From NCBI GenBank assembly GCA_004299845.1, contig CP036201.1, positions 806,001 through 870,000 on the forward strand: DNA of 64,000 nt. The letters run 5' to 3'. Both the position numbers and the translations under genes were made by a program. The stretch comes from Verrucomicrobia bacterium S94 (GTDB taxonomy: Bacteria > Verrucomicrobiota > Kiritimatiellia > Kiritimatiellales > Pontiellaceae). How positions within the stretch are numbered: the first letter of the stretch is position 1; each line of letters begins with the position of its first letter. The notes beneath the pieces were generated by a model. It was not told where the DNA came from, ran no database searches, and saw only the letters and a program-made list of their open reading frames with translations. Shown one piece after another: positions 25,665 to 52,067 of this stretch.

Positions 25665-28554
25665 TCAGAGTACTTTGGTTCTGGTTTGCAGTCCGGCTCG
25701 TTCGGCGGATTCCGGGGAGCAGAGAACGGATACTGCTGAATCTTCAAATGCCCGGATCAGTACATCTCCAAAGGCATTGAAATGTTCCTGTGTAGTGGAT
25801 AGTACTTCGTCGCGAAGCTGCTGCCGTTCTTCGTCGGTATAGTTGAGCAGATAGCGCATCGTGCTGGAATAGCCTTTGGCATCGGGAAGCTGATAGGCAT
25901 CCAGAGCACCGATGGCACCGATCAGTGCGCGGGTGAGTTCGTCCTCGCTGAGCTCCAGATTTTTAAGATATTCACCGGTCTGTTTATAAATTCTGAGTGA
26001 GTTTTCCAGATTGGGATCGCGGTAGGAGGCAAAGGTGAATACGCCGGAACGCTGATCGAAGGCGCACATGCCGCCGTAGGCACCGCCCTGAACGCGGATT
26101 TTTTCCCAGAGCCAGGCGGTCTGCAGGTAGCGGGTAATGACCATGGCCGAACCGTGCATCTTATAGCCGGCATCAAAAAGATTGGCTGCACATCCCACAT
26201 AGTTGACCCTGGTCGGAGCCGTGAGGGCTTCCGATTCGGGGAATGAAGTCGGTTTCCAGGTTTTGGAGGAAAAGCTTCCGGTTGCCGGAAGGTTTTCAAT
26301 AAACTGTTCCAGTGCCAGGACGGTACCGGGCATGGCGTCGGAATCGACCGTTACATTAATGACCATATGATCGCGGCAGACGAGGGTCTGCCTGATTTTT
26401 TCCAGTCGCTGGAGGATGGCATCCCAATCCGTGTCGAGTTTGTCTGCAAGTTCACGGATAAAAAAGAGGGCCTCCACGCCGCCCATCATTTCGTTGGCCC
26501 AGTGGGCTTCGTGATAGTGCGCTTTCAGGCGGGTCATCACGGCAGAGTGTCCTCGGGAACGACGCCGGTTTCGAGCTCGGATTTATGTTCGAGTACAATC
26601 TGTTTGAAACGTTCTTTGTCGTCAAATTTTGCGGTAAGCAGTATGTCGTGCATGATATCAAGCAGTTCTTTGGTCTGGCCTATCATGCATTTTCCGCGCA
26701 GAAAAAAGCGGGTGATTCCTGTTTTACTGTCTTTCTGTGCAGAGAGAAACGGGCTGCCGTAGATTCCGCCGGTTCCTTTGGCGATCCGCTGCGAGAGCGT
26801 TACATAGCCCTCCGACTGCGTGCCCATTTCCAGCAGAATACTGCCCAGCAGTGATGCGTAGGGGAGATCTTCCTGGTCCAGGCCGTGCAGGTTGAGACCG
26901 AGATCCAAATAGAGAATCCCGTTAGTGAACAGGTTGTGTTTTATGACGGTGGTGCCTAGAATTTTCTGCGTTGTGAACGGAACTGTTTTTATTTTTTTAT
27001 CCAGATCCCCACGTTTAAGCAGGGGTATGGTGGCGAGTGCTTCGTCGGAATCCGGGGTGGACTGCAGTTTAAGAAGCCGTGCTGTATTGGCCACAATATC
27101 GTCCAGTTGCTGATCGGTCAGGCGTGCCTTGATGGCGGCAAGCCGGTCTTTTTCTTCTTTGTCGGTGCGGACGGAAAATTCGGGATCGGGAAACAGCACC
27201 ACGGTTGAGCGGTGCGTGTTATCGATGAAATATCTGCGGATCATATTTTCAAAAAATCCCGGTTCCTGTGCGCGCTTTTTGAGATTCTGCAACGGCTGTT
27301 CAAAGGCGATGAGTTCCAGCGGATCTGCATCATAAATCCAGGCATTGAGCGATTTCAGCCAGAGAGAAAGGCCGCGCGGAAATCCACCCGAATTATTTTC
27401 GCGCAGTTCAAATTCAAAGGTATTCAGTGCTGCCGCGATGTCGTCGGGATCGATGCCCTGTTTCACAAGATCCTGCAGGATCTGGAAAACGAGTGCTTCG
27501 CCTTTTTTCAGATTTTCCTCATCAATCCCTTTCAGGCCGATGGAATACATCATCTGGATCATATGCGTTTCAATACCGCCGCCGGTGATGTCTTCGCCGA
27601 GGCCGGATTCAATGAGACCTTTGCGCAGCGGTGATGCCGGGGTTCCCAGCAGAATATGATCGAGCAGGTTGAAAGCAAAAACGGTTTCGGCATCGGTCGG
27701 TGAAGGCAGCGACCAGTTTACGGTGAACATCGGTTGCGGATCTTCATCGTCAGCGGAAACCGCATAGGGTTTTTCGAGCCGGACCGGTTCCGGCAGAGCA
27801 GGCTGGAGTTCTATGTCGGAATCCGGTTCGCTTTTGGTGTATTGCCCCAGATAGCTTTCCAGGAGCTTAAACCGTTCCTCGACCGGGTCGTCGCCGTAGA
27901 AAAAGATACGGGCATTCGACGGATGGTAGAAGGTGTCGTGGAAATTTTTAAACTGCTCATAGGTGAGCTCGGGAATCTTTTCCGGATTTCCGCCGGAATC
28001 GAGGCCGTAGGTGGTGTCGGGATAAAGTGACTGCTGTGAGGCTTCCATGAGCAGGGAATCGGGGAGGAGTAAACGCCCTTCATTTCGTTATAAACGACAC
28101 CTTTGAATGTCAGGTCATCCTCCTTGTTTTCCAGGCTGTAGTGCCAGCCTTCCTGCATAAAGAAATCTTCGGTGATCCGCGGGTTGAATACCGCATCGAG
28201 ATAGACATCCACCAGATTGTGGAAATCCTTAAGGTTCTGACTGGCAACCGGGTAGCAGGTTTTATCCGGATAGGTGAATGCGTTGAGGAAGGTCTGCAGC
28301 GAACCTTTGAGTAACTGCACAAAGGGATCCTTTACCGGATATTTTTCGGATCCGCACAGCACGGTATGCTCCAGAATGTGGGCCACGCCGGTGGAATCCG
28401 ACGGAGGAGTGCGGAAAGCGATACCGAAACACTTGTTTTCGTCATCATTTTCCATCGAAAGAATCTCCGCCCCGGTGGGAATGTGGCGGTAGATTTTTGC
28501 GGTGGTGTTCAGCTCTTTGACTTCTTCAGTGCGTACCAGTTTAAAATTATTCAA
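25665..28554 (-). pseudogene. M16C metalloprotease (presequence protease-like) with two frameshifts
   Basis: Three consecutive minus-strand frames together give a full-length PreP/Cym1-type protein of about 960 residues. The first frame begins at TTG 28554 (GGAGG placed just upstream) and holds the inverted zinc motif HILEH in GVAHILEHTVLCG. The first break is at the four-base run at 28061-28064: one more C on the coding strand gives VYSSPDSLLMEASQQ. The second break is at the run at 26555-26557: one more C gives VVPRGHSAVMTRLKA. Each break needs just one missing base in a C run. The rest is well conserved, so assembly error is as likely as true decay. The family degrades peptides, with both halves enclosing the active site. 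Confidence 0.8.
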
Positions 28555-28904
28555 AATTAGCCTCCAATGAAATGCAAAGATAATTATCGGAAGTGAGCTC
28601 AAAGATCCATCTAATTGACGCTTTTTCGCGGTGTCAACTAACGCTGGATGTTAAGAGATTTGTTTTTATCGGTCAGAGAAACAAATGGATAGAAATCAAA
28701 TTGGGAGAGCGAAGGAAGGGGGAATTCTTAAAATACGTAAAAATAATACATTTAATAAATATCTAACTGGATCGACGAGTGATTTTGGGGTATCAAATTT
28801 GTTCATTTCATACGCGCAAGTTTCAGTATTGTATGGATTCCCGCTGATTTTGCGAGATTGGGGTAGGGAATTTGGGGAGTGTATCGAATAGATATTGGGG
28901 GAAA
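28555..28904 (+). other. 350-base AT-rich gene-free region before the caspase-like gene
   Basis: No supported gene. A 68-residue reading frame at 28685-28891 has no homology signal and no convincing ribosome-binding site. TTGAC and GTCAA around 28615-28640 form a short inverted repeat. The region is richer in A/T than the flanking housekeeping genes, like the gene that follows. Divergent promoters for the M16 protease and the caspase-like protein must lie here. Confidence 0.4.
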
Positions 28905-31900
28905 ATGCGAAAAATCATTTGTTATTTTTTTGTGTGTTTATTGGTTCCTGTCTTTGCTGAACGATATGCAGTGATTGTTGGAGTTTCTGATTATTTAAAT
29001 AATGATCTCATAAATGATCTTAACTATTGCGATGATGATGCTCGCGAATTTCGTGATGCTTTGCTTCAGGATGCGGGATGGTCTTCTTCAAATATTTCCT
29101 TGTTGATAGATTCGCAAGCCAGTAAGGCGAATATTCAGAGTGCGATTCAGCATATGGCCTCGGTTGCTGAGCCTGATGATTTGTGTCTGATCATCTTTTC
29201 CGGGCACGGAGGGCAGGCATCAGATCTGTCACCGATTGATGAAGTTGATGGAAGTGATGAATATCTTGTTCCCTATGATTTTGATGGAACTGCGGCGACA
29301 GTGATTTTGGATGATGAATTCCCATTGTGGATTGAGACGATCAATGCGGGGCAAATCGCAATAATTCTTGATACCTGTCACAGTGGAGGACAGGTAAAAC
29401 AGGTTGGTCAAAACAGAGTTAAGTCCATATATCAAGGAGCTTGGAACGCAAAAATAGGCGATGGTTTTTCCGCTGATTTTGAAGAGCGTTCCCGGGATAT
29501 GGACGATCTTAGTGGCATTGTTGTTGTGACCGCTGCAGATGACGATGAATTATCTTGGGATGCTGGTCCATTGCAAAATGGGCTGTTTTCGTACTATGCC
29601 GTAAGGGCAATGACCGAGGATGCGGGTAATGCGGATGCAAATGGAAATGGGCAGCTTTCATGTGAGGAATTATTTACATATGCTTCTCCTCTTGTGGTGA
29701 GTTATAGCAGTAGTAATCTTTCTGCTATACAGCATCCTCAAATATATGATGGAAATGGGACCCCGGAGCTTGAAATTATATCCGTATCGGGGGCATCCAC
29801 TGATGATGTATATGAACCCAATGATTCTCTTACCGAGGCTTATATCGGGTTGGGAGAAAGAGTCTGGCTTTCAACTCTTTCCGGTTCCGGCATTCAGGCG
29901 GATGAGGATTGGTATGAAATTACTGTGTCTCCATCCGGTTATGAACGGGTTCAGGTGGAGTGTGTATTTACGCATGCAGATGGAGATATTGATCTTGCAT
30001 TGTATGATTCAGGAGGAACCCAGCTTGCCCGCTCGGAAACTATTACAGACAATGAGTCGATCGATTACACGGTTGCTGCGCCGGGAACCTATTATATTCG
30101 AGTTTACTATGGTAATACCGGAAATACTTATGATCTGTGGTGGGATAATGTTCTGGTGCCGACAGGACTGCCGGACTTAGCTCCCGCACAGTTTACCGGG
30201 TGGGATGATTATATTGTTGTTTCGACAGAGACCGGAACCAGCAGCAGCGTCTCTACCTTTACAACTGATGACATTCTGTATGTTGATTTCGGCTCCGGTA
30301 ATTTTGGAGATGGAGATGCCGGAGAGCATCATTATGGGTTGTATGTGGATGGGGTTCTCGAGCATTACTCTGTAGTTTCGTCTTGCTCTCCTGGATATGG
30401 AGGGCGGATTCAGGATGCGGAGATTGGTCCTCTTCCCGCCGGAGAACATACGCTGGAAGTAAAGTGCGACTATTTGGATGAAGTGGCAGAGCAGGATGAG
30501 ACAAACAATGACTATTCCCGAATCATCTCGGTTGTTGAGTCTGGGGCTGAAGAGGATACGCTTCATGTTTCTTTTGATGCATCGGGAGGGACCAATACAT
30601 CGATCTCATTTACGAATGATGGATCGCTATGGGCATTTGATACTTCTCAGCTAGAAGGTTGGGCCACAGCGGCTTTGACGGGGAGGAACACGATCGGGTT
30701 AGGTGGCGGAACTGATCATGTTGGATGGTATGGGGAGTCTTCGTTGCGTATTTCTGTTTCTGAGAATTTCGGGGATGCCCGTTCGTGTTCTATGGAGGTT
30801 AATTCTCCCAAGGAGACTTATATCATCGTCATCAGCCAGGAAGCTTCTCCTGCTACAGGAAATTATAGCGGAGGGTCCGGAACTGAAGCTGATCCGTATC
30901 AGATTGCTGATAAACAAGACTTGCTGGACTTGGGTATGAATACCGGCGATTACGATAAGTATTTTGTCATGACAGCCGATATTGATCTTTCCGGTGAAAG
31001 TTTTGCATCTGCAATTATTGCTCCTGATGAGGATTCGACCACGAACTTGTTTGTAGGAACAAAGTTCAGTGGAAGTTTTGATGGAGCAGGTTATACTGTT
31101 TCGAATCTGATGATTGATGCATCAACTGTTGGCGGACACTACCTGGGTCTGTTCGGTTATGTAAGCGGAAGTTCTTCATCGATTGAAAATTTAAGGCTCG
31201 AAGGGGTTCGCATAACCGGTGGTGGAGTGACTTCAGATTACTTGGGTGGACTTTGTGGAAGGATTGATTCGGGGGAAGTCAGAGAATGCAGCGTTTCGGG
31301 CTCGATCGGCGGGGGATATAATTATGTTGGAGGGCTGGTTGGATTAAGCTATTCGGCAGCTATTAGTTCATGTTGTTCTGAATCTGAGGTCTTGAATTTT
31401 GATGACTGTTGGTATGTTGGCGGGTTTATTGGAGTCAGCGCTGAAAGTAGCATACATACCTGCTATGCCTTGGGTGAAGTTCGCGGGGCTTCGCATGTAG
31501 GAGGGTTGATTGGTCTGATAGATGGAGGTCTGATTGATACATGTTATTCTGCTTGTAAGGTAATCGGCACATCCGAAACCGGCGGATTAATAGGACATGA
31601 TTATCAAGGGGATACCTCCGTAGAATGCTGTTTTTGGGATACGCAGATTTCTGGTGTTTTAGTCAGCTCCGGCGGGGTTGGGATAACAACATCTGAAATG
31701 CAGACTCAAAGTATGTTTGCTGCCGCGGGCTGGGATTTTTCTGAAGTCTGGTACATGGATGGTTATCCCGGGTTGCAGTGCTTTAGTGGAGTTGCTCCAC
31801 TTCAGGTTGCCGCACTTGTTATTAATGGTCCGGAAATCGTTACTGAGGAAAGTTCCACTAATTATAATTGTTTGGCGTATTTCGAAGATGAGTCCTTTGC

Positions 31901-33206
31901 TGATGTTACTTTATTGGCGAATTGGTCGACAGATACGCCGGATATGACCTCCATCAGTAACGGGATCTTGTCGGTCACTGAAGTGGGTTCGGATGAAAGT
32001 TGTACCATTACGGCTTCCTATGGTGAAAAAACCGCCACCAAAGTCATAACGGTGAAAGATGTGCCGCTGAATGTGGTGGCATTGGTTGTCAGCGGTCCGG
32101 ATTCTGTTGTGGAAAAAACGACAACAAACTATATCTGTACGGCTTATTTTGCAGATGAAAGCTCTGCGGATGTAACTGCGGAGGCTTCGTGGTTAATTGA
32201 TAACACCAATATTGCGACCATCTGCGGCGGGGTATTGAGTGCGCAGAATGTATCAGGTGATCAGACCTGTACTGTTACCGCTGTTTACCAGGGAGAATCG
32301 CAGAGCCGATCGGTAACCATAATGGATACTCCGGCCCAGGGGCTGCCATACAATGATAGTTTTGAGACAGGGATGGGGCTGTGGGTTTCATCCGGTTCTG
32401 ATTTTGACTGGAGTTTGGGTAGCGGTTCAACGCCGTCGCCGATCACCGGCCCATCTGGTGCATCGGATGGCAGTCAGTATTTGTTCATAGAAGCAACAGG
32501 CAATACGCAGAAAACCGCTGGAGTCGAAGGTTCATTCAGTTTCAGTGGTATGACCAATGTGATGCTGACCTTTGACTATCATATGTATGGCCAGGATATG
32601 GGAATACTGCATGTGGATGTTTACGATGGAGTGTGGCGCAACGCGGTATGGAGCCGTTCCGGCCAGCAGCATGCCGGTGAAATGGAGCCATGGTGTCAGG
32701 CGATGGTGGATCTTACAGCCTTTGATGGAAAAGATGAGGTGATAATCCGTTTCCGCGGTGTTGTCGGTACCAGTTATTTAAGCGACATGGCTATTGATAA
32801 TGTGTCGATAACCGGAAGCATGATTGCAACTTATCAAAGCTGGGTCGATGGATATTCAGTTCCTGTTAATCAGCAGGGGTATTTTGATGCACCTGCGGGG
32901 GATGGAATCGAAAATATCTGGAAATACGCCGTTGGTCTTTCTCCTTTATCGGCCAGCTCCAAGGAGGATCTTTATACGTGCAGTATCGTTAGTAACCGGT
33001 TCTGTGTCACCTATCTGAAATCCAAAGATGCGCCGCAGGCGGATATTCTGCCTTCGTGGTATTCTGTTCTTGGCGGTGTTTGGGAAACAAACGGATTGAC
33101 CATTAGCGAGATCGGGGAAAATTCAACGCAGGAAATCTGGCAGGTGAGTGCACCAATCAGTAGCAATGGATTTATTCGCTTAGAGGTTGAGCTGGAGACG
33201 CCCTGA
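28905..33206 (+). CDS. Secreted caspase-like (C14) multidomain protein
   Basis: 1433 residues from the ATG at 28905 (AGGGGA-like site: TTGGGGGAAA upstream). Signal peptide to about residue 19, then a caspase-fold peptidase at about 20-295 with the catalytic His101 in FSGHGGQ and Cys158 in ILDTCHSGGQ. A PPC-type domain follows (about 300-405, EPNDSL, DIDLALYDSGG, PGTYYIRVYY). Next are a CARDB-like adhesion domain (about 415-545), a beta-sandwich resembling BACON, GLUG-like repeats with YVGGLVGLS-type units, two tandem Ig-like domains, and a jelly-roll segment. The GxGIxNxWKYAxG-type C-terminus resembles tails on exported Kiritimatiellota proteins. It is probably exported to the surface. AT-rich base use differs from flanking genes, which hints at transfer. 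Confidence 0.85.
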   Translation: MRKIICYFFVCLLVPVFAERYAVIVGVSDYLNNDLINDLNYCDDDAREFRDALLQDAGWSSSNISLLIDSQASKANIQSAIQHMASVAEPDDLCLIIFSGHGGQASDLSPIDEVDGSDEYLVPYDFDGTAATVILDDEFPLWIETINAGQIAIILDTCHSGGQVKQVGQNRVKSIYQGAWNAKIGDGFSADFEERSRDMDDLSGIVVVTAADDDELSWDAGPLQNGLFSYYAVRAMTEDAGNADANGNGQLSCEELFTYASPLVVSYSSSNLSAIQHPQIYDGNGTPELEIISVSGASTDDVYEPNDSLTEAYIGLGERVWLSTLSGSGIQADEDWYEITVSPSGYERVQVECVFTHADGDIDLALYDSGGTQLARSETITDNESIDYTVAAPGTYYIRVYYGNTGNTYDLWWDNVLVPTGLPDLAPAQFTGWDDYIVVSTETGTSSSVSTFTTDDILYVDFGSGNFGDGDAGEHHYGLYVDGVLEHYSVVSSCSPGYGGRIQDAEIGPLPAGEHTLEVKCDYLDEVAEQDETNNDYSRIISVVESGAEEDTLHVSFDASGGTNTSISFTNDGSLWAFDTSQLEGWATAALTGRNTIGLGGGTDHVGWYGESSLRISVSENFGDARSCSMEVNSPKETYIIVISQEASPATGNYSGGSGTEADPYQIADKQDLLDLGMNTGDYDKYFVMTADIDLSGESFASAIIAPDEDSTTNLFVGTKFSGSFDGAGYTVSNLMIDASTVGGHYLGLFGYVSGSSSSIENLRLEGVRITGGGVTSDYLGGLCGRIDSGEVRECSVSGSIGGGYNYVGGLVGLSYSAAISSCCSESEVLNFDDCWYVGGFIGVSAESSIHTCYALGEVRGASHVGGLIGLIDGGLIDTCYSACKVIGTSETGGLIGHDYQGDTSVECCFWDTQISGVLVSSGGVGITTSEMQTQSMFAAAGWDFSEVWYMDGYPGLQCFSGVAPLQVAALVINGPEIVTEESSTNYNCLAYFEDESFADVTLLANWSTDTPDMTSISNGILSVTEVGSDESCTITASYGEKTATKVITVKDVPLNVVALVVSGPDSVVEKTTTNYICTAYFADESSADVTAEASWLIDNTNIATICGGVLSAQNVSGDQTCTVTAVYQGESQSRSVTIMDTPAQGLPYNDSFETGMGLWVSSGSDFDWSLGSGSTPSPITGPSGASDGSQYLFIEATGNTQKTAGVEGSFSFSGMTNVMLTFDYHMYGQDMGILHVDVYDGVWRNAVWSRSGQQHAGEMEPWCQAMVDLTAFDGKDEVIIRFRGVVGTSYLSDMAIDNVSITGSMIATYQSWVDGYSVPVNQQGYFDAPAGDGIENIWKYAVGLSPLSASSKEDLYTCSIVSNRFCVTYLKSKDAPQADILPSWYSVLGGVWETNGLTISEIGENSTQEIWQVSAPISSNGFIRLEVELETP

Positions 33207-33249
33207 CCTTAACCATTAATATCATTGAGGTTGAAGGGGTTGAAATGAG

Positions 33250-33897
33250 CTAATCGGGTTTGATGTCGGTCCAGAGCTCGCAGTCGGGATGGGAGGAGAG
33301 GGCGATTCCGGCGGCGATCGATTGGGGATCGTGCAGCAGCGTGTTGATGATGCTGCGTTTGGATTCGCCGGTGACGAGCAGAATAATTTTTTCGATCCGC
33401 TGGAAAAAGGCGGGGGTGACGCTGACGCCCTGCATGCCGTCCGGTCGGTCGGTGTGGAGCGTGAGCCGGTCCTGAATCCGGGCCTGTTCGGGCGTGAAGA
33501 AGCCGGCGGTGTGTCCATCGGCCCCCATTCCGAGAAAGCCGAGGTCGACGAGGTTCATCGGTTCGAGATTTTCAGCAAATTTTTCGGCGGCGGCAGCCGG
33601 GGAAAGGGAGGTGTCCACCTGCAGGAAATTGTCGGTACAGTCCAGGGCCTGCAGCATGGGCTGCAGGTTGTGGGCATTGTTTTTATCGGAGTCGAACGGC
33701 TGCATGCGTTCGTCGCTGAGGAAAAGGCGGCGGTTTTTATGCACGGGGCAGGGGTCGGCCGCGAGGCGGTTATAAATGACATAGGGTGTGGAACCGCCAC
33801 TGAGCATGATATTTCCAGGAGTCGGAAAGGTTCCGCGCAAAACGTTCAGGGTCTCGCGGATCAGGTCTTCGGTTGTGTTAAAAGATTGTATTTTCAT
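33250..33897 (-). CDS. pgl: 6-phosphogluconolactonase
   Basis: 215 residues, DevB/Pgl family, hydrolysing 6-phosphoglucono-lactone in the oxidative pentose-phosphate pathway. The N-terminal part reads IMLSGGSTPYVIYNRL, followed by RRLFLSDERM and GMGADGHTAGFFT, all signature segments of the family. The gene starts with ATG at 33897 and is divergent from the acyltransferase gene. zwf and gnd are not seen in the window. pgi, also a glucose-6-phosphate enzyme, is at 61.5 kb. Confidence 0.93.
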   Translation of the reverse strand: MKIQSFNTTEDLIRETLNVLRGTFPTPGNIMLSGGSTPYVIYNRLAADPCPVHKNRRLFLSDERMQPFDSDKNNAHNLQPMLQALDCTDNFLQVDTSLSPAAAAEKFAENLEPMNLVDLGFLGMGADGHTAGFFTPEQARIQDRLTLHTDRPDGMQGVSVTPAFFQRIEKIILLVTGESKRSIINTLLHDPQSIAAGIALSSHPDCELWTDIKPD

Positions 33898-40142: not shown

Positions 40143-40843
40143 ATGAGTGAGCAGAAAATCAATATTCCAATGCTTGGAACTTTTCTCGGTATTGTGGCGG
40201 CGCTTGCGGCCGGACTGCTCTCCGGCGTGCAGGCGATGACGGCCCCGCAGATTGAGGCGAATAAAAAAGCGGCGATCAGCCAGGCGATGGATCAGGTATT
40301 GCCGACATACGATAATGATCCCGCTTCCGAAACCAACACGTTTATCTGCGGGCGTGGCTGGGAGGTCACTTTTTATACCGCCCGTAAAGGGGGGAGATTG
40401 TTGGGTATGCAGGGAAAGTGGATAACACCGATGACGGTTTTTCCGGAACGGTTTCGCTCATGGTGGGAATTCGTCCGGACGGATCCATTGCTGAAATCGA
40501 TGGAGGGGATGCCGTTAACAGTGCTGTGATTGTGACCGCGCAGACGGAAACCCCCGGACTGGGAACCGCCGTTACAGATCGTAAGGTACAGAAAACCATT
40601 GTGGATCTGATTCGGGGGACTGAAGAAATCAGGGGACTGGTTCCCAACCGCTATCTGGACTGGTATGCCGGGAAAAAGGCCGGTGACGAAGTCTGGGGCA
40701 TTGTAAAGGATGGAGAAGCGGTTAACGGAAAAACGGGGGCCACCATTACCAGTCGTGCGGTCTGCGAAGCGGTATATGCGGTAAGTCGAACCGCGATTGA
40801 TCATCTGGAAGAGCTTTCAACGGAGGCGGGTAAAAATGATTAA
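40143..40843 (+). pseudogene. rnfG: Electron transport complex subunit RnfG, apparently frameshifted
   Basis: The first frame starts at 40143 with a membrane anchor (MLGTFLGIVAALAAGLLSGV) and ends after a nonsense stretch at 40529. A second frame, ending at 40843, resumes the family sequence with the FMN-attachment motif KTGATITSRAV. The frames join if the six-G run at 40389-40394 had seven G: the protein then reads through as RKGGEIVGYAGKVDNT, matching family layout. All other rnf genes are intact and overlapping, so a base missing in the assembly is the simplest explanation. Confidence 0.85.
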
Positions 40844-41675: not shown

Positions 41676-41762
41676 GCACCCGTGGTGAAATTGGTAGACA
41701 CGCAAGATTCAGGTTCTTGTGCCAGCAATGGCGTGATGGTTCGACTCCATTCGGGTGCACCA
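41676..41762 (+). tRNA. tRNA-Leu (anticodon CAG)
   Basis: 87 bases including encoded CCA. The acceptor stem pairs GCACCCG with CGGGTGC. The anticodon stem CAAGA/TCTTG encloses TTCAGGT, so the anticodon is CAG at 41710-41712 and it reads CUG codons. The long variable arm (GCC...GGC) is of class II type as in leucine tRNAs. The T arm and CCA end coincide with the phage attachment core, so phage integration preserved the tRNA sequence but replaced its native downstream region. Confidence 0.95.
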
Positions 41763-42908
41763 CTCTTTAAGGGTGTTGATAGCTTCTAAAACGTTGCTAT
41801 CAGCACCCTTAATTTTTTCCTGTACTGCATGCATAGTATTATTCTCCGTTTTCAGTTCCTGTTTTGTTCCCTGTTTCAGAGATGGAATTGCATCAATTGC
41901 AGCGGAGACATTTAAAAGCCCCCGGTCTACATAAATATCGTTTGTAAGTTCCGGCGATGAATGCCGCATTGCTTCCTGGGCTAAACGGTGCGGCACATTG
42001 GCCTGATGCATGAGCATGCAAAAGGTTTTCCGCAATGAATGGAAACTCGCTTTTTCGTTCCGCTCGTTATTCGTGACAATTCCGGCGGCTTCAAAATCCC
42101 GCTTTACTGTTCGGTTATCCGGCATCTTTGGAAATACACATTCGGACAACTTCGATTCCCGTTTTTTTGTCCGCAGCATTTCCAGCAAATCAGAATGAAT
42201 TTTAATTGCGGATTCCTTGCCGTTTTTCGTTTTCGCTCCGGATAAAAGGATATGCGGATATTCACTATTCAGATTTACATCGGCCCAGGTGACAGCCGCG
42301 CATTCTGCATAACGAAGACCAGTAAGAAGCGCGAAGTGATAAAGCTCCGAACGTTTACCTTTCAAAAGTGAATTAATTTCCCGATCGTTTAGAGCGCGAT
42401 ACTTGAAAGAAACTTTGCCCCTGATCCGAAACGGCGGAATCATGGCTATAGGGTCGTCTATTGCGTAACCGTGAAGCACAAGCCATTTTGTGAAGCTTTT
42501 GAGGGTACTTAGATAATGGTTCAGCGTTTTCGGAACGTACTTTGTTTTCGACATCCGCCAACGCAAAAAATCTTCAGCGTTAATATCCCGGATCAAATAC
42601 CAGGACAAATCCGAAAAAAGAACATGCAGACGGCTTTCTGTTGCGTTGATATAGCGCATTCCGGCTTCCATGGTTCGAAGATAGTTTTTAGCCAGATCAC
42701 GCAAAGGCATGGATGCAGCGTTAATCAGTTTTTGCGGACTGATAATCCCGGCGGCTTCTCGCTCCATACGCTGGAATAATTCGTCAATGCGTTTTTGAGC
42801 TATGAGCTTATCTTTCGTTCGCATTGATTTGTATGTAATCCGGTCACTGGGATTAATGCGGATTCGCGCATGCCATACGCCAGTTTCTTTTTTAACGAGT
42901 GTTTTCAT
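41709..42908 (-). CDS. Phage tyrosine-recombinase integrase
   Basis: 399 residues in the integrated form. N-terminal arm-binding and SAM-like core-binding domains are followed by the catalytic domain with Arg199 (TGLRYAEC), HxxR 290-293 (FHSLRKTF), His316 (AMRHSSPE) and the nucleophile Tyr326 (NDIYVDRG). The C-terminal 17 residues (from residue 383) are encoded by the complement of the tRNA gene. Eight of these come from the shared core and nine from the host tRNA. In the excised circle the frame would instead continue through attP for 49 more codons to 51888, giving 439 residues and an ATGA overlap with the methyltransferase gene. Confidence 0.93.
   Translation of the reverse strand: MKTLVKKETGVWHARIRINPSDRITYKSMRTKDKLIAQKRIDELFQRMEREAAGIISPQKLINAASMPLRDLAKNYLRTMEAGMRYINATESRLHVLFSDLSWYLIRDINAEDFLRWRMSKTKYVPKTLNHYLSTLKSFTKWLVLHGYAIDDPIAMIPPFRIRGKVSFKYRALNDREINSLLKGKRSELYHFALLTGLRYAECAAVTWADVNLNSEYPHILLSGAKTKNGKESAIKIHSDLLEMLRTKKRESKLSECVFPKMPDNRTVKRDFEAAGIVTNNERNEKASFHSLRKTFCMLMHQANVPHRLAQEAMRHSSPELTNDIYVDRGLLNVSAAIDAIPSLKQGTKQELKTENNTMHAVQEKIKGADSNVLEAINTLKEWCTRMESNHHAIAGTRT
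41737..41762 (+). repeat. Prophage attachment site, integrase end (attL)
   Basis: The 26-base core starting TGGTTCGACTCC and ending GTGCACCA covers the T loop and 3' end of the tRNA. An identical copy is at 52036-52061. The distance between copies is 10,299 bases, the expected size of the excised circle. Confidence 0.9.
41767..41818. terminator. Phage-borne terminator now closing the tRNA-Leu gene
   Basis: TTAAGGGTGTTGATAGC (41767-41783) pairs with GCTATCAGCACCCTTAA (41796-41812) over 17 bases including one G-T pair, followed by six T. It lies inside the integrase reading frame. On the plus strand it follows the tRNA by a few bases and can replace the tRNA's own terminator, which has been displaced to 52068. 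Confidence 0.85.
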
Positions 42909-43131
42909 TTCGGTTTTTCTGCAAAAACTTAGTTATAAGCGAATAACTGATTTCGATATTATGATTAATTTTAAGCCACTCCGAAATTTTGCGAGAACTC
43001 ATATAATCAGAAGCTTCAAGGATGCTTTCGCGCATATTCTCCAAAATCTGACGCTTACTGCATCCTTCAGATTTAGCATGCGAAACAAGATCGTTACCTA
43101 TTTTTTCATAATCTAATTTAGGTGTTTTCAT
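42892..43131 (-). CDS. Small phage protein preceding integrase, possible DNA-binding regulator
   Basis: 79 residues, basic, overlapping the integrase start by 17 bases. The C-terminal half (SRKISEWLKINHNIEISYSL) looks like a helix-turn-helix. An excisionase or repressor role is possible but unproven. ACAGGA is upstream of the ATG. No named family is recognised. Confidence 0.65.
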   Translation of the reverse strand: MKTPKLDYEKIGNDLVSHAKSEGCSKRQILENMRESILEASDYMSSRKISEWLKINHNIEISYSLITKFLQKNRNENTR

Positions 43132-43197
43132 AGTCCTGTCTTTGATATGGCCAATATATTTTTAATAGTTACTTTAACTCTTCACGCCTGCTTCAGA

Positions 43198-43314
43198 GGT
43201 TCGGGAACCGGTAAAGGTAGTATTTAATTTTTTTTTTAAAATCGGACGGGTAAACCCTGCTAACGCCAGATTTTAAAAAAAAATAAAATCTCCACCTTGA
43301 CCGAACCCCGAACC
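43198..43314. promoter_or_regulatory. Large nested inverted repeat in the phage non-coding region
   Basis: The outer arms 43198-43218 and 43294-43314 match in 17 of 21 positions. Inside, A-T10-AAAATC (43227-43243) is complementary to GATTTT-A9-T (43269-43284) apart from the T10/A9 length difference, and the loop holds GGGTAAACCC. On single-stranded DNA this would fold to a long, branched hairpin. It sits between zot and the integrase module, where it might be a strand-origin, packaging signal or terminator. 43132-43359 holds no gene. Confidence 0.55.
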
Positions 43315-43359
43315 GCTGATTAATGGCTTTTATCTTCCTTTTCCAAAGGAATGACTTAT

Positions 43360-44637
43360 TCAACTTCCTTTCGGTGCCGGTGATTCTTCCTCTGATTTCG
43401 TTAAAGAATCTTCAACGTTAAAAAGGTTGCTGTAATCGGGATAGATGAACGTTGTATTACCAAGCTCATCCATAATGTGAACCTGATCACGTTTGACGGA
43501 TAGAACAGTGCCGGCGGTCGTCTGCTGGCCGGTCTGATAGGGGATCCCGTCGACAAATAGCCTCTTAATTTGGCCGTTGGACTCGTGATAACGGAATTTT
43601 CCGTAAAGGACATTTACACGAGGTCTTTCAGGCTCTGCGGAAACTGTTGCTTCTGACGGTACAGATTCACTTGATTCGGACTGTACCGCTTCGATTTTCG
43701 GAGACCTGAAAACACCGATTATTCCGAGAAGAAGACAAGCGTACAATGCGGCTTTCTCAAATTTATTCATTGCTTTTTTTCCTTTTACGATTTTTCCGGA
43801 ATCCCCGAAATCCGTTTTCATGTCATCCGCCATCTTTATGCCGTGATTGTGCATGCTGACTGATTGATAACACTGAAAAATAAGAGTATCTCTATAGACC
43901 CATGTGTTCTTATTGATCGTTTCGGCCTTCATTTTTCCGAAATGGGATTTATGGAATTTTTCACAAATAATGTAATCACGCCAAGGCGGAGGAAGTGGAC
44001 GATTGAAGATAGGAACTGGCCAATTATACATGTCGCGGAACTTCCAAACAAAATGTGTCAAAACACGTATTTTGGGATCGAGTGACCCGAAGTCCTGAGC
44101 GATGAAAATTAAATTAATTCCGAGCTTCCGAATATGACGGAGGAAGCTTCTAAATTCGGCATTAGCATTACGCGAACTGGCCCCGGCTTCGAAATGATCT
44201 AATGCTTCATCAAGAATAACAAGTACGGGCCTTGTCTGGGAACCTTGCGGAAGTCTGGACGGAAGATCAGCGTTTACATGATCATCGGGCAAATAATTGT
44301 ATTGGCCATTCTGAAGGAGCCATTTGTGCTGTAATTCGAGATACTTCCGAAAACCTCTGGAATTGTATTCAAACTCAGGTTGTCCGGTCTTTTCATTACG
44401 GCGCATGACCGGAAGAACAATACCGCCCTTATGCATTTCCATTCGGCAGCCGTCATAACATTCGGGCAACCAGAATGATTTCAATTTATGCGCGTATGCT
44501 TCATTGAACCAGGGATCAAGTTTGAAATCAATATTCGTAAAGACAATGCCGCCCCCGGCGATATGTTCGGCAGCTCGTTTAACAGAAAAGAATGATTTTC
44601 CGCCGCCCATCAAACCACTGAAACACTCAACAAACAT
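43360..44637 (-). CDS. Zot-like/pI filamentous phage assembly ATPase
   Basis: 425 residues. Walker A is FSGLMGGGKSFFSV near the N-terminus and a Walker-B-like VLVILDEALDHFEA is near residue 145. The LRHIRKLGINLIFIAQDFGSLDP segment is typical of Zot domains. A membrane segment at about 300-316 (ALYACLLLGIIGVF) precedes a periplasmic C-terminal part, as in pI proteins that pump single-stranded virion DNA out through the inner membrane. GAGGT precedes the ATG. Confidence 0.92.
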   Translation of the reverse strand: MFVECFSGLMGGGKSFFSVKRAAEHIAGGGIVFTNIDFKLDPWFNEAYAHKLKSFWLPECYDGCRMEMHKGGIVLPVMRRNEKTGQPEFEYNSRGFRKYLELQHKWLLQNGQYNYLPDDHVNADLPSRLPQGSQTRPVLVILDEALDHFEAGASSRNANAEFRSFLRHIRKLGINLIFIAQDFGSLDPKIRVLTHFVWKFRDMYNWPVPIFNRPLPPPWRDYIICEKFHKSHFGKMKAETINKNTWVYRDTLIFQCYQSVSMHNHGIKMADDMKTDFGDSGKIVKGKKAMNKFEKAALYACLLLGIIGVFRSPKIEAVQSESSESVPSEATVSAEPERPRVNVLYGKFRYHESNGQIKRLFVDGIPYQTGQQTTAGTVLSVKRDQVHIMDELGNTTFIYPDYSNLFNVEDSLTKSEEESPAPKGS

Positions 44638-44652
44638 CGATACCTCAAATAA

Positions 44653-45051
44653 TCAAAACAATAATTTCCGGGCGGTAAGTATTGCGCGGACAGTCGCACA
44701 AATTCCGTAAAGGACAATCCAGGCATTGCACCAGAGAAAGAGCTCCTGTATCGGAAGAAACGTGTTGCAGAAGGCTACCACATCAAGAGCACTGGAAATT
44801 GTTCCGTCTGCACTATCGCGTAAAGCCTGCAAATCAATCGTATCAAGCTTCGTCATTATCCGATCAGCAAGCGTTACGATAAAATCCCATGCCGATTTCA
44901 TCGAAGCAATGACCAGGGGAATAAGCGTCCAGACATTATTCAGCATGTATTCCCAGATCTTCTTACGCGCATCATTGGCCCATTTCAGCGCATTGAATAT
45001 CTGCTGGAACCAGCCTTTAACATCGATGATCCATTGCGGAATTAGGCTCAT
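44653..45051 (-). CDS. pVI-like minor coat / inovirus membrane protein
   Basis: 132 residues with two or three membrane segments (WTLIPLVIASMKSAWDFIVTL, ELFLWCNAWIVLYGICATV) and amphipathic helices. It lies directly between the adsorption protein and zot, precisely where gVI sits in inoviruses. The ATG overlaps the stop of the upstream gene as TAATG. pVI caps the tail end of the filament with pIII. No sequence match to a named family was recognised, so the call relies on size and position. Confidence 0.75.
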   Translation of the reverse strand: MSLIPQWIIDVKGWFQQIFNALKWANDARKKIWEYMLNNVWTLIPLVIASMKSAWDFIVTLADRIMTKLDTIDLQALRDSADGTISSALDVVAFCNTFLPIQELFLWCNAWIVLYGICATVRAILTARKLLF

Positions 45052-46487
45052 TATACAAAGGTCTCCTTGATAATGTGCGCACAGACAAATAGACCGAATA
45101 CATGCAAAGCAAACTCTTCGATTTGCCTTACTATGGGAATTCCGTCAAATTGGTCTAAGTCAATCTGCAACTGATTCGGCCAGATTTTAATACCGCCCGG
45201 ACCACCTTCCGGCATTAAGAATGTCATTGTTGTTTGCTGGCCTATGCTATCCGGCAGGTTCAAAGTGAAAAATGATCCGAACCAATCATCTACGAATTCA
45301 AGCAGCGCATTGCTTTTTTCAATTCGGGAATCCACATCGACAAAAGCGTTTGTGTTTTCCCCCTCTGAAAAAACATATTCTGCATATCCTGTTTCGCTTA
45401 AAGAACCTTGAGATTCGTAAACCTGATTACCTACAATACTCTGCAAATTGGAGTTGATTTCAGATAATATCTGTTCGTTTGATTCATTCGTAACCGTGAC
45501 CGTAAAAAGATTAGTTCCGCCTGTGCCGCCGACAGAATCAAGTGAAAGAACTGCCGTTTCTATGTCTGAAAGCAATTCCGTGTGCTCTTCGCTACTGTCC
45601 TGCTGATGCTCTAAAAGATCATCGAGCGTTACCCCAATATCATTAAGATAAGTAACGGCCTGATCAGCCGTTATGCCCTGTTCCTGGAGTTCATCTAATA
45701 TGTCATCTGATATCTGTTCTATGCTCGTGATCGGTTGATGCAGGTCGGATAAGTTCTTATCCAGGCGAACGGATAAACCTTCCCGGATACCCGAAACCTC
45801 ATTTTCGAGTTCGCCCAGATTCGTTACATAAACATTACCCTGAACTGTATCGGTAATATTGCTTGACGGATATTCATTGATCGGCGGTAAAGGTTCATCG
45901 GGATTGGTTATCGTATCCGGATCGCTTTCGTCCGTTCCACTGGTAAAGGGGTCGTCTTCCGGGTAGGAATTGGGGTCTGTTGGGTCTGAACCATAAAGCA
46001 CCTCTACGCCGTCTTCATAGCCGTCACCGTCACCATCTCGATTTTGCGGATAAGGATCTTCATCATCCGGAAGACCGTCCCCGTCATCATCTGTATCTTC
46101 ATCGTCAGGAATGCCGTCGCCGTCTGTATCATCAACTATATCACTTCCATCTGAATTTACTAAACCATCTTCGTACTTAACACCTATTTCAATTGTAGGA
46201 CCAGTTGAATACGTATCATAATCAGAGGGCAAAGATATCTTAATCTGAGGTACCCAACCATTCCAACCGCCAAGCTGTGCGTATACTGTACGCTTACCGT
46301 CTATAAAACTTCCGGTTATTGCAGATGACCCGGTAAATACATCATATCCTAAATAATCACCTGAAGGACTATACTTATGTACCTTCAATTGTTGATTATA
46401 CTCCAACACCGAAGAAAATATAAGATGATATGTGTCTGCATATACAATCAAATTTATAAAAAAAATAAGTGTTATTAATTTCTTCAT
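45051..46487 (-). CDS. pIII-like adsorption protein with calcium-binding TSP3 repeats
   Basis: 478 residues from the ATG at 46487, which starts a signal peptide (KKLITLIFFINLIVYA). A longer start is rejected because it would overlap another small gene. The middle carries thrombospondin-type-3 repeats (DTDGDGIPDDEDTDDDGDG, RDGDGDGYEDGVE), calcium-binding DxDxDG loops. There follow a low-complexity linker, helical coiled stretch, and a C-terminal membrane segment (FALHVFGLFVCAHIIK) as in pIII, which anchors the tip protein until assembly. Position between the coat and pVI-like genes supports the role. Receptor not known. Confidence 0.8.
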   Translation of the reverse strand: MKKLITLIFFINLIVYADTYHLIFSSVLEYNQQLKVHKYSPSGDYLGYDVFTGSSAITGSFIDGKRTVYAQLGGWNGWVPQIKISLPSDYDTYSTGPTIEIGVKYEDGLVNSDGSDIVDDTDGDGIPDDEDTDDDGDGLPDDEDPYPQNRDGDGDGYEDGVEVLYGSDPTDPNSYPEDDPFTSGTDESDPDTITNPDEPLPPINEYPSSNITDTVQGNVYVTNLGELENEVSGIREGLSVRLDKNLSDLHQPITSIEQISDDILDELQEQGITADQAVTYLNDIGVTLDDLLEHQQDSSEEHTELLSDIETAVLSLDSVGGTGGTNLFTVTVTNESNEQILSEINSNLQSIVGNQVYESQGSLSETGYAEYVFSEGENTNAFVDVDSRIEKSNALLEFVDDWFGSFFTLNLPDSIGQQTTMTFLMPEGGPGGIKIWPNQLQIDLDQFDGIPIVRQIEEFALHVFGLFVCAHIIKETFV

Positions 46488-46624
46488 ATCGGAAACCGCA
46501 GCGAAACAAAACGAAAGATGCCCAGGCCAATAAGGATGCACAGGCATCGACAAATCCAGACCCCCACAACCGTGAGGGTCTGGAGCTGGGTAAGAATATC
46601 TTGAAGTAATTCGACCTCAGTCAT
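46484..46624 (-). CDS. 46-residue inovirus membrane protein
   Basis: Small gene with an acidic N-terminus (TEVELLQDILTQL) and one membrane helix (VVGVWICRCLCILIGLGIF) followed by a basic end. Its TGA overlaps the ATG of the adsorption gene (ATGA), and it begins six bases after the coat protein stop. Short single-helix proteins at this place are minor coat components (pVII/pIX type) in filamentous phages. It is too short for ordinary gene finders. Confidence 0.7.
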   Translation of the reverse strand: MTEVELLQDILTQLQTLTVVGVWICRCLCILIGLGIFRFVSLRFPI

Positions 46625-46630
46625 TGGTTA

Positions 46631-46921
46631 TTAGTTGGCGCGAATTGCGCTCTTGATCTTGCGATAAACCCAGCTTGCAGCAACGATCGTAAGACCGGCA
46701 CCGAGAACGCCCAGGAAGGACGTTACGCCGTACGCGATCCATGTTCCGGCGTCGGTGACAACACCATCGATCGACGTAGTATCGACTTCAGCCCGCGCAC
46801 TGCCTGCTACGAACAAACAGGCCATAAAAGCCGTCATTGCAGCATTCAGCTTGTTGCGGAAAAATTTCTTTTTCCCCAGTTCGAGCGACTTAAAAGCCGC
46901 AGCTTTAATCATTTTTTTCAT
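46631..46921 (-). CDS. Major coat protein (pVIII-like) precursor
   Basis: 96 residues. A long signal peptide ends at ARA before EVDTTSIDG; the mature part of about 52 residues has an acidic N-terminus, one membrane helix (SFLGVLGAGLTIVAASWVY) and a basic C-terminus (RKIKSAIRAN) that would contact DNA in the virion. These are the standard features of the inovirus major coat. AAGGAG precedes the ATG. Translation is coupled to the following 46-residue gene. Confidence 0.88.
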   Translation of the reverse strand: MKKMIKAAAFKSLELGKKKFFRNKLNAAMTAFMACLFVAGSARAEVDTTSIDGVVTDAGTWIAYGVTSFLGVLGAGLTIVAASWVYRKIKSAIRAN

Positions 46922-46973
46922 ATGTATTCTCCTTATGGTTTGTTGTTCGGCTGTGCCGAATTACTTCAAATAT

Positions 46974-47099
46974 TTAAGATTGTTTAATTGCTTTGATTAT
47001 GGTCATGCCTACGGCCATTGGAATGAAGAAACCGGCCCCGAAAGATATGCCGAGCGTGATAAAACCGAAAAATTCAGTCATGGTGAATCCATCTGTCAT
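46974..47099 (-). CDS. 41-residue phage membrane protein
   Basis: Overlaps the preceding stop as ATGA (ATG 47099-47097). Single hydrophobic helix (FFGFITLGISFGAGFFIPMAV) followed by a short basic end. It falls in the row of small genes before the coat protein. A virion end protein (pVII/pIX-like) is the likely role by position and size. No family name is recognised. Confidence 0.65.
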   Translation of the reverse strand: MTDGFTMTEFFGFITLGISFGAGFFIPMAVGMTIIKAIKQS

Positions 47100-47287
47100 G
47101 CCTGCCCCGCCAGTTCAAACGCTTCATCGTGTGAGAAATCATGAACATACAAAAGGTGATTATAAAGCGCTGACCTTGCCTCACTGGCTGAACCGTCTTT
47201 GTACGTGTCAAAAAGGAAATTATGACCGCATTCCGGACATACAAGCTCACCACAGTGATTATAAGTAATGAAATCGTAATCACTCAT
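47096..47287 (-). CDS. 63-residue Cys2-type zinc-ribbon phage protein
   Basis: The core reads CPECGHNFLF ... LYNHLLYVHDF, i.e. CxxC followed by HxxxxxH-like residues, so a zinc-finger fold is likely. Its ATG overlaps the previous stop as TAATG. The end (SHDEAFELAG) resembles the end of the 74-residue protein two genes upstream, so both may derive from one ancestor. Function unknown; regulatory or DNA-binding is a guess. Confidence 0.65.
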   Translation of the reverse strand: MSDYDFITYNHCGELVCPECGHNFLFDTYKDGSASEARSALYNHLLYVHDFSHDEAFELAGQA

Positions 47288-47430
47288 TAGCCACGTCTCC
47301 AGGCATCCCGAAGTTTAAGAAAAAGATTGCCACCCACGACGAGCAGCGCGAACAGCCACAACGGCCAGAAGGTGACAATCTGGAAGAACAGCTGTTTAAG
47401 GCCTGATAATGCTGATTCCAAAAATGCCAT
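47287..47430 (-). CDS. 47-residue phage membrane protein
   Basis: The ATG follows directly after the stop of the preceding gene (TAA then ATG, no gap), and the stop is TAATG-linked to the next gene. The sequence has an amphipathic N-terminus and one membrane helix (FWPLWLFALLVVGGNLFL) with a basic tail. The tight linkage makes it credible despite its size; likely a virion minor coat or assembly protein. Confidence 0.65.
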   Translation of the reverse strand: MAFLESALSGLKQLFFQIVTFWPLWLFALLVVGGNLFLKLRDAWRRG

Positions 47431-47655
47431 TTAGAGTTCTTCCCAGTGTTCTAAATCTTTAATTTGATCCATAACGCTAGGACCATCGTCCACCCATACA
47501 CGTGCATTACCAAAGGCTGTAAATGCTTCTTCGTGACTATAGCCGTCTTGGTACCTCAAATCGCGGTACATTGCCCGTGCACTATCCTGTGTTGCTGGCC
47601 AAAGCTCGCACGTCTCTGGATGTTCTAACGCCCAATGGCCCCTTTCCATGATCAA
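47431..47655 (-). CDS. 74-residue phage protein
   Basis: No family recognised. The ATG overlaps the stop of the ssDNA-binding gene by ATGA. The C-terminal segment (YSHEEAFTAFG) resembles FSHDEAFELAG in the 63-residue zinc protein, but the Cys pair is absent. Possibly a diverged paralogue that has lost its metal site. Confidence 0.6.
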   Translation of the reverse strand: MIMERGHWALEHPETCELWPATQDSARAMYRDLRYQDGYSHEEAFTAFGNARVWVDDGPSVMDQIKDLEHWEEL

Positions 47656-48209
47656 CCTTTCAACGGTTTAATTTCACCGAGAGCAAATTTAATTTTTTCA
47701 TGACCGCTCTTCTTGATCTCGTATTCCAGAGAGCCGGACAGCGAGACCATCTTTCCTTTGTGCGGAACAATTTTTGAAAGGTCGTCCGGAGTGATTTTCA
47801 GTGATGCCATACCGCCGAAGTAAGCCATTTTCGCCCAGGCGATAAGCTCGCCGGCTTCTTCATTCTGCATACTTCCGCAGTCTGCAATCTGAGACTCTCC
47901 GATATGCCATTGAATCCCCATAAACGAATCTTCTTTTTTTAATGGCGACTTAATTTCACCGAGAGCGAATTTGATTTTTTCATGTCCGGATTTTTTAATT
48001 TCGTATTCGAGCGTACCGGATACAGAAACCATCTTTCCTTTATGAGGAGCGATTTTTGCCAGATCATCGGGCGTGATCTTGAGCGATGCCATGCCGCCGA
48101 AATAGGCCATTTTCGCCCAGGCGATAGGCTCGCCGGTTTCTTCATTCTGCATACTGCCGCAGTCTGCAATCTGAGCCTCGGCGATAGACCATTGCATTCC
48201 TTTATCCAT
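47652..48209 (-). CDS. Tandem-duplicated ssDNA-binding protein (gV-like)
   Basis: 185 residues made of two near-identical halves of about 88 residues, one covering roughly residues 6-91 and the other about 100-185 (offset about 94 residues, 282 bases at DNA level). Both contain ADCGSMQNEE and MAYFGGMASLKITPDDL. Gene V proteins are about 85-residue homodimers, so this would be a covalent single-chain dimer. The gene lies at the head of the virion operon, as gV does. AAAGGAG precedes the ATG. The fold is inferred from position and size, not from a named motif. Confidence 0.7.
   Translation of the reverse strand: MDKGMQWSIAEAQIADCGSMQNEETGEPIAWAKMAYFGGMASLKITPDDLAKIAPHKGKMVSVSGTLEYEIKKSGHEKIKFALGEIKSPLKKEDSFMGIQWHIGESQIADCGSMQNEEAGELIAWAKMAYFGGMASLKITPDDLSKIVPHKGKMVSLSGSLEYEIKKSGHEKIKFALGEIKPLKG
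47667..48200 (-). repeat. In-gene tandem duplication of about 282 bases
   Basis: The TAATTTCACCGAGAGC segment occurs at 47669 and again at 47951, and the rest of the gene aligns over the full length with the same offset. The two copies differ mainly at third positions, so the duplication is not very recent and both copies are under selection. Confidence 0.8.
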
Positions 48210-48259
48210 TTTTATTTCTCCTTTGTTTTAAGCAACCAAAAAAGGCCAAGGCGTTAAGC

Positions 48260-48439
48260 CTAGGCCGCGATATGTTTAAAGTGTGAAAGCTCAAAAAGAC
48301 GGATATCAATATCGAGTGATATGTCCGCGCATTTGCGCATACATGCCGCCCCTTCATGATGACCCTTTTCATCCAAATATTCGGCATGTGCCAACGAATC
48401 AAAAAAACGTTTACGAGCTTCTATCAGTTCTTTCGGCAT
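48260..48439 (-). CDS. 59-residue small phage protein
   Basis: Starts at ATG 48439 with GGAGA upstream (a longer frame without good start is a shadow). The sequence is helical and charged, with an ACMRKCAD motif. No family recognised. It lies before the ssDNA-binding gene in the same direction, next to the divergent operator region, so it may be the first gene of the lytic transcript. Confidence 0.55.
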   Translation of the reverse strand: MPKELIEARKRFFDSLAHAEYLDEKGHHEGAACMRKCADISLDIDIRLFELSHFKHIAA

Positions 48440-48451
48440 CAGCTTCTCCGG

Positions 48452-48548
48452 GTTGCAAAGTGTTGCAATCTGTAACTGATGGAAATTTGTATACATACAG
48501 ATGCAGAATGCAACTATAAAATGTATTTTTGTTGCAACATGCATCTGT
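48452..48548. promoter_or_regulatory. Operator cluster between divergent phage transcripts
   Basis: Arms ACAGATGCAGAATGCAAC (48497-48514) and GTTGCAACATGCATCTGT (48531-48548) match in 15 of 18 positions around TATAAAATGTATTTTT. Further GTTGCAA copies stand at 48452-48458 and 48462-48468. The TATAAA in the centre of the dyad could be a -10 for the plus-strand gene. The site lies between the plus-strand ribbon-helix-helix-like gene and the minus-strand small gene and would suit a lysogeny switch. Confidence 0.55.
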
Positions 48549-48561
48549 GATGATCTGTTAT

Positions 48562-48825
48562 ATGAAAGACAAAAAGACAGGCAGAATAATGGCCAACGTT
48601 TCAGACTCTGATAAATCAGAATTTGAACGTATCGCAAGTGAACTAAGACTATCCTCTGCAGGACTTGCAGGAATTTTGATAGAATCCTTTTTAGAATCTA
48701 AAAGGAAATACGGAAACCAACTATTCTACCCGCCTAAATTTCACACATTCGAATCTATAAAAATTCAAGAAGAAATAGACCATGAAGATTCCGAAAACTC
48801 CGTTTCACAACAGAAGGCCGGATAA
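48562..48825 (+). CDS. Ribbon-helix-helix-like regulator (candidate phage repressor)
   Basis: 87 residues from ATG 48562 (ATG at 48589 is another choice). After a short basic start, the segment NVSDSDKSEFERIASELRLSS is typical of a ribbon followed by a helix of RHH proteins. The rest is charged. It stands divergent to the virion operon next to a dyad operator. Most parsimonious role is the repressor of the virion operon. Confidence 0.6.
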   Translation: MKDKKTGRIMANVSDSDKSEFERIASELRLSSAGLAGILIESFLESKRKYGNQLFYPPKFHTFESIKIQEEIDHEDSENSVSQQKAG

Positions 48826-48853
48826 TCAAGCCACTTTTTAAACATTGGAAATC

Positions 48854-50664: not shown

Positions 50665-50706
50665 TTTTTCGAATTTTGACTGATCGTCAATATTTTTTCC
50701 ATTTAC

Positions 50707-52050: not shown

Positions 52051-52061
52051 CGGGTGCACCA
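52036..52061 (+). repeat. Prophage attachment site, distal end (attR)
   Basis: 26-base copy of the tRNA-Leu 3' end, identical to 41737-41762. Only this partial tRNA copy remains here. The bases after it differ from those after attL. Confidence 0.9.
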
Positions 52062-52067
52062 TTCTTG

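Follow-up and report, generated by a model that had tools for sequence, protein, structure and literature searches.

A putative exported metacaspase-type protease with an EF-hand-type loop in Verrucomicrobia bacterium S94

Prokaryotic relatives of the caspases are usually treated as enzymes of cell death or stress, and it may be asked what such an enzyme would do outside the cell. The question is raised by a single open reading frame (ORF) of Verrucomicrobia bacterium S94, which lies on a stretch of 64,000 nt (contig CP036201.1, positions 806,001 to 870,000; in the following, the window) and encodes a protein of 1433 amino acids (aa), here called the query. Sequence and models bear out a metacaspase fold, the catalytic dyad, acidic S1 residues, an EF-hand-type loop and a lineage-specific acquisition of the gene. 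From these features, we consider it probable that the query is a metacaspase-type cysteine protease that is exported and catalytically competent and would function in calcium-supported proteolysis outside the cell or at its surface. An exported, horizontally acquired branch with such a loop suggests a digestive or processing role in the extracellular space. Suspicions that some caspase homologues are exported go back to 2012 or earlier and came with the same functional speculation (PMC3501461; this and the other papers are cited for excerpts of their text). Since exported bacterial relatives are already known, we regard the query as a variant and not as a new kind. It is probably a known kind of enzyme in unusual form: an exported metacaspase of predicted activity that was acquired by one lineage, has an EF-hand-type loop in its p10 and carries a C-terminal domain of its host.

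The catalytic domain

The following features (window positions) define the N-terminal part of the gene.

28905..33206, + strand: whole ORF, 1433 aa, putative exported metacaspase-type protein; ATG at 28905, stop codon ending at 33206
28905..28958, + strand: predicted signal peptide, 18 residues, by inspection of the sequence
28962..29747, + strand: Peptidase_C14 p20 and p10 domain, aa 20-281 (Pfam 5.4e-21; AlphaFold2 model; metacaspases in PDB)
29205..29207, + strand: catalytic His101 (sequence position and alignment)
29376..29378, + strand: catalytic Cys158 (sequence position and alignment)
29634..29669, + strand: EF-hand-type, putative calcium loop in p10, Asp244-Glu255 (alignment column and profile matches to EF-hand chains)

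An original prediction, made from the sequence of the window, had claimed an exported protein with a caspase fold. His101 and Cys158 were found at exactly the positions it gave, within a Peptidase_C14 match of 5.4e-21, and the signal peptide identified by inspection supported export. The catalytic domain starts directly after this signal peptide, so that by sequence reading there is no prodomain. Structure prediction, named as a check at the time, returned a metacaspase fold with metacaspases as the best PDB matches. The AlphaFold2 model (19-sequence alignment as input) had a pLDDT of 82.9 and a pTM of 0.84; its long low-confidence segment, model residues 146-184, corresponds to aa 164-202, the linker between p20 and p10. 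Plant metacaspases were the top structural matches (AtMCA4: VIA Z 24.1, rmsd 2.5, 214 residues aligned) and also headed the Foldseek search against PDB (6e-14). Legumains and MALT1 came next at Z ~21 and caspases at ~20, with GSU0716 at VIA Z 20.7. The layout is that of type I: p10 lies C-terminal to a p20 with the His-Cys dyad of metacaspases and orthocaspases (C14), the linker is short, the Pfam profile is covered over 224 of 233 positions, and model residues 1-270 superpose on metacaspases. In NCBIfam the caspase part matched a single family, NF047832, 'caspase, EACC1-associated type' (E 6e-13), with 48.8 bits far below the cut-off of 140.

Conservation was read from an alignment of 68 domains including the query, from which segments <120 aa and duplicates had been removed beforehand. 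His101 and Cys158 are each kept in 67/68 domains, and a single relative lacks both; non-conservation of these residues in homologues, one of the two results that had been named as refuting the prediction, thus did not occur. The S1 acid Asp156 is present in all 68 domains and Asp45 in 66. These two residues, both present in the query, we take from metacaspase structures to form the acidic S1 pocket for a basic P1 residue. Because His101, Cys158 and Asp156 are conserved, a working protease of the Arg/Lys type is the best reading of the domain. Prokaryotic metacaspases and orthocaspases (MEROPS C14; PMC3501461, PMC6426788) share the p20 fold, the His-Cys dyad, the acidic S1 pocket and extra domains with the query, and some of them have N-terminal helices read as signal peptides, as in the query. 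They differ from it in its very long modular tail of extracellular type and in the EF-hand-type loop inside p10.

The EF-hand-type loop, the nearest relatives and the proposed function

Residues 244-255 conform to the consensus of EF-hand loops. At this one alignment column a strict pattern was matched by 6/68 domains, a relaxed pattern by 15/68 and either of them by 16/68 (15/67 without the query), while shuffled sequences matched either pattern in 0.30 domains on average and in 3 at most. A profile of 19 domains matched nine PDB chains of calmodulin and other EF-hand proteins at positions within 211-253 (E 7.6e-5 to 0.001, the individual stretches all being below threshold alone) and also eleven metacaspase-type PDB sequences. 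GSU0716 of Geobacter (PDB 3bij) and plant and yeast metacaspases are the best structural and sequence matches of the query. For GSU0716 and the yeast-type proteins the profile match ends just ahead of the loop, whereas the alignment of AtMCA4 and AtMCA9 continues through it; both lack its first Asp and are six residues shorter at its start or next to it. Since AtMCA4 retains the second half, Asp-Gly-x-Ile-Ser-x-x-Glu, the loop may be an elaborated form of a shared element. Calcium regulation of metacaspases and a '280-loop' in p10 have been described (PMC5756287); the loop of the query appears to sit beyond the '280-loop', past the next helix. Among the matches listed in open-licence PMC texts for EF-hand and caspase, only PMC6426788 treats both EF-hand and orthocaspase, and it reports an EF-hand motif among the additional domains of seven archaeal orthocaspases.

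In a tree of 66 rows (quick method, two short rows omitted), the query fell into a clade with a protein from a metagenome-assembled genome (MAG) of its own class (G233) and proteins of Chloroflexi, Desulfobacteraceae, Alkanophaga and ANME-1. The clade had an SH-aLRT of 90, less than the mark of 95, which no set of up to half of the rows holding the query reaches. All six members have a signal peptide, five by heuristic and the query by eye. Thus, with moderate support, the nearest kin appear to be exported caspases of the same class, of other phyla and of ANME-type archaea. Two relatives in this clade, from ANME-1 (L093) and from a Spartobacteria-labelled MAG (L041 = L092), share signal peptide and modularity with the query but differ in their tails, and L093 adds a stretch resembling clostripain-type C11 peptidases by eye. 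Over the whole alignment, 38 of the 67 other rows look exported or lipoprotein by heuristic, and several of the remaining 29 are clipped ORFs. The caspase-domain match (1e-5) was present in 45 of 387 sampled genomes of the phylum; among the 10 genomes listed from the same genus it was restricted to the query's own and one weak, short match (G050). A named scan with patterns that favour this caspase type found 32 loci.

In an aquatic survey (PMC4933709), Verrucomicrobia lacked metacaspase genes in one data set, and in another they had few. In open-licence PMC texts nothing was found on metacaspases in Kiritimatiellota, and the texts listed held nothing on secreted C14 proteins with a PPC domain or on methanotroph caspases. 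Unusual arrangements were seen at some of the loci: a single exported-looking ORF of 2774 aa with three C14 domains (L054, 5824-14145), two to four caspase-domain ORFs side by side in genomes of the same phylum (L053, L057, L058), and in a Chloroflexi MAG (L091, 1951-5499) a papain-like stretch, by eye, together with a caspase domain in which His and Cys are replaced.

For the proposed function, the Sec pathway would remove the signal peptide, and calcium would occupy the p10 loop outside the cytoplasm and stabilise the enzyme. We propose activation by calcium because an N-terminal prodomain is lacking; the flexible linker (aa 164-202) contains Lys and Arg, and self-cleavage there may contribute. 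The protease would cut proteins at exposed Arg/Lys sites, and the PPC/CARDB/Ig/MAM tail together with the C-terminal domain would tether it to the cell surface or the substrate. Its most likely task would be the breakdown or trimming of extracellular proteins. H101, C158, D244 and E255 make up a testable residue set. The presumed relatives of the organism export many polymer-degrading enzymes, which we counted for the degradation of extracellular proteins: in Pontiella agarivorans signal peptides were predicted on 61% of the glycoside hydrolases and 96% of the sulfatases (PMC10880615).

Several observations weigh against this function. No neighbouring gene indicates a substrate. The loop patterns, which fit just 16 of the 68 domains, were composed after the loop of the query had been seen. 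Yeast Yca1 has an Asp seven residues after the catalytic Cys, where the query has Lys165, and Asp occurs here in 9/68 domains; this Asp is presumably the calcium ligand of eukaryotic metacaspases, which therefore appears to be missing in the query. The alignment rows were gathered by similarity that included the active site, which inflates dyad conservation, and many rows are related to each other. Furthermore, both dyad residues are replaced in L091, so that catalysis is apparently not always what relatives keep. The same relative favours the view that the query is a surface adhesion or matrix protein, whose caspase fold acts chiefly in binding while proteolysis is minor or absent. So does the large share of residues beyond the catalytic domain, ~1150 of 1433, in modules of binding type where they can be named. 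The query itself, however, retains the dyad, Asp45 and Asp156, and we judge this alternative unlikely.

The tail and its C-terminal domain

The region behind the catalytic domain comprises the following features.

29901..30107, + strand: PPC domain, aa 333-401 (Pfam 8.9e-9)
30300..30518, + strand: CARDB domain, aa 466-538 (Pfam 7.3e-6)
31239..31307, + strand: GLUG motif, best of four stretches, aa 779-801 (Pfam 1.2e-8)
31788..32336, + strand: bacterial Ig-like repeats, aa 962-1144 (similarity to the repeats of another ORF of the genome; without Pfam match)
32358..32813, + strand: MAM domain (jelly roll), aa 1152-1303 (Pfam 1.8e-12)
32826..33203, + strand: C-terminal domain without Pfam or NCBIfam match, aa 1308-1433 (own-genome profile matches, AlphaFold2); candidate sorting or anchoring module

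The tail had been described as adhesive, with PPC, CARDB, GLUG-like, Ig-like and jelly-roll domains. Pfam recovered the first three and identified the jelly roll as MAM; the Ig-like part got no Pfam call and was assigned by similarity (33-38% identity) to repeats of another ORF of the genome that are Ig-like by eye. PPC, CARDB and MAM suit binding, but the terminal module proved to be a domain found throughout the genome, so that the description fits in part. PPC domains are associated with secreted peptidases, and the position of this one after the protease was counted towards such a reading. In paracaspases an Ig domain lies next to the caspase domain; the Ig-like repeats of the query, which lack a Pfam Ig match, are ~680 residues downstream of it.

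Neither Pfam (E <= 1) nor NCBIfam (E <= 10) gave a match to the last 126 residues. AlphaFold2 predicted two helices followed by six strands (pLDDT 94.2, pTM 0.85), for which a PDB fold search returned nothing at E <= 0.001; Ig-like sandwiches of generic type came closest (E 8e-3). Searching with a single sequence detected the domain in 14 of 21 genomes of the genus, the own included. At 28 of 30 loci that were read, the match runs to the stop codon with roughly the rest of the domain; the other two (L065, L085) were misread by the script. A profile search of the own genome (4.1 Mb, single contig) gave 36 matches including the query, of which 27 reach at least position 119 of 129 and nine are partial. 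We re-read 20 stretches around the stronger matches: 21 of 25 ORF matches end <=7 residues past the domain, the other four extend 15, 26, 33 and 143 residues beyond it, and a heuristic predicts a signal peptide for 20 of the 25. Ten ORFs with the domain were scanned with Pfam (1e-5), which identified one sulfatase, one lectin-type and one PKD/Ig-type protein and no match in the other seven. Since the domain is mostly terminal on diverse exported ORFs, these data suggest a candidate sorting or anchoring module, which may be the sign of a route by which proteins reach the surface in a group of marine polysaccharide degraders. None of the open-licence PMC titles and abstract starts listed for sorting and type IX secretion describes this domain, and a search for secretion and C-terminal domains in Kiritimatiellota gave nothing beyond ushA. 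At one locus (L184, 7874-8701) the domain match is followed by sulfatase-like sequence in the same open frame, either a fusion or a lost stop codon.

Gingipains are exported clan CD proteases of the Arg/Lys type with a C-terminal module. By prediction the query resembles them in these respects but belongs to C14, whereas gingipains belong to C25, and no C25 catalytic domain was listed for the query in Pfam at E <= 1. The Por_Secre_tail of cargo of the type IX secretion system (T9SS) was also not found: TIGR04183 scored 17 bits against a cut-off of 23, at aa 356-405 and not at the C-terminus. A search for the T9SS translocon protein SprA gave no match in the own genome, nor in any control genome. 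By analogy with the action of gingipains on T9SS cargo, the query could be a maturation protease for the surface proteins of its own cell, as the many ORFs sharing the C-terminal domain and the predicted basic-residue specificity would allow. Two genomes of the genus without a caspase match (G227, G159), however, carry 7 and 6 matches to the C-terminal domain; processing throughout the lineage should therefore not hinge on this gene, and we give a maturation role a low probability. A more far-reaching reading would see a family of horizontally spread, calcium-gated exported caspases with an EF-hand in p10 as extracellular proteases of anaerobic bacteria and archaea, delivered in Kiritimatiellota along a novel surface-sorting route for which the C-terminal domain, present on about two dozen exported proteins of one genome, would be the signal. 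We put this forward tentatively and consider it doubtful as a whole.

Acquisition of the gene and its neighbourhood

28557..33265, no strand: inserted stretch between pgl and the PreP-type peptidase gene (from the empty site of the nearest relative)

The AT-rich background of the gene, unlike that of its flanks, was borne out by GC3, which is 0.41 for the ORF and 0.34 for the catalytic domain compared to 0.51-0.73 in 14 chromosomal gene pieces measured nearby; the values are 0.43-0.46 for three genes belonging to an integrated element that lies 10 kb downstream. G035, the genome whose PreP is most similar (89%), has ~85 bp in place of a 4.7-kb stretch of the window. Because GC3 differs from that of nearby genes and the site is empty in this relative, the gene is best read as a lineage-specific, horizontal acquisition. 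By computation, pgl and the PreP-type gene are adjacent on one contig in 15 of 43 genomes of the order. The slot is empty in 11 of these, where the pgl and middle-PreP matches are 577-603 bp apart (five read in sequence), and filled in four (1.9-5.2 kb; own window, L135, L137, L142), each time with different cargo. Besides the caspase gene, the cargo consists of a subtilase gene (G396, Pfam 3.6e-9), which was counted for an extracellular protease, an exported-looking protein of 348 aa (G395), and an exported-looking protein of 1157 aa with a smaller ORF (G389); neither the G395 ORF nor the two of G389 gave a Pfam match. The profile of the C-terminal domain made weak contact with the G395 and G389 slot proteins and none with the subtilase, so a common cargo type is suggestive only. 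Delivery by a transposon or integron was dismissed: within 28603-33252 no inverted repeats were found and just short, unconvincing direct repeats.

The gene stands by itself between housekeeping flanks, with the divergent PreP-type gene 302 bp away and pgl in convergent orientation, and a reading with operon partners was therefore rejected. Predation or attack on other bacteria, offered in the original prediction, gained no positive support from this position. An exported protease with binding modules would fit such an attack enzyme, and a fratricidal role has been proposed for extracellular prokaryotic metacaspases (PMC3501461). However, the gene is single, Pfam found no immunity or effector family beside it among 20 neighbouring ORFs (three without match), ExbB/ExbD are encoded 3 kb upstream, and the phage-like element found 10 kb downstream encodes a Zot-named protein, which is more readily read as a pI-type assembly protein; we consider attack very unlikely. 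Least likely is a role at the cell surface in the programmed death or stress response of the own population, the traditional view of prokaryotic metacaspases (PMC3501461), given the signal peptide, the patchy presence and a Pfam result without NACHT, TIR or other signalling domains.

Two genes near the insertion are interrupted. The PreP-type peptidase gene (25665-28602, - strand) is in three frames in the window and in a single frame in G035 and most relatives listed, and the gene at the rnfG position (40143-40843, + strand) is in two frames and in G035 in one. Among 39 ORFs matched from G035, 36 are single-frame and three multi-frame, one of these probably being a spurious antisense ORF. Decay of PreP by loss of its promoter after the insertion was not retained, because the gene at the rnfG position is also split and a sequencing error is equally likely. 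Further downstream (41737-52065), an inovirus-like element of ~10.3 kb and low GC is integrated at tRNA-Leu. It encodes a tyrosine integrase, a Zot/pI-type protein, a replication initiation protein and a DNA methyltransferase, and end repeats of ~30 bp are suggested by the overlap of its matches to the empty G035 site.

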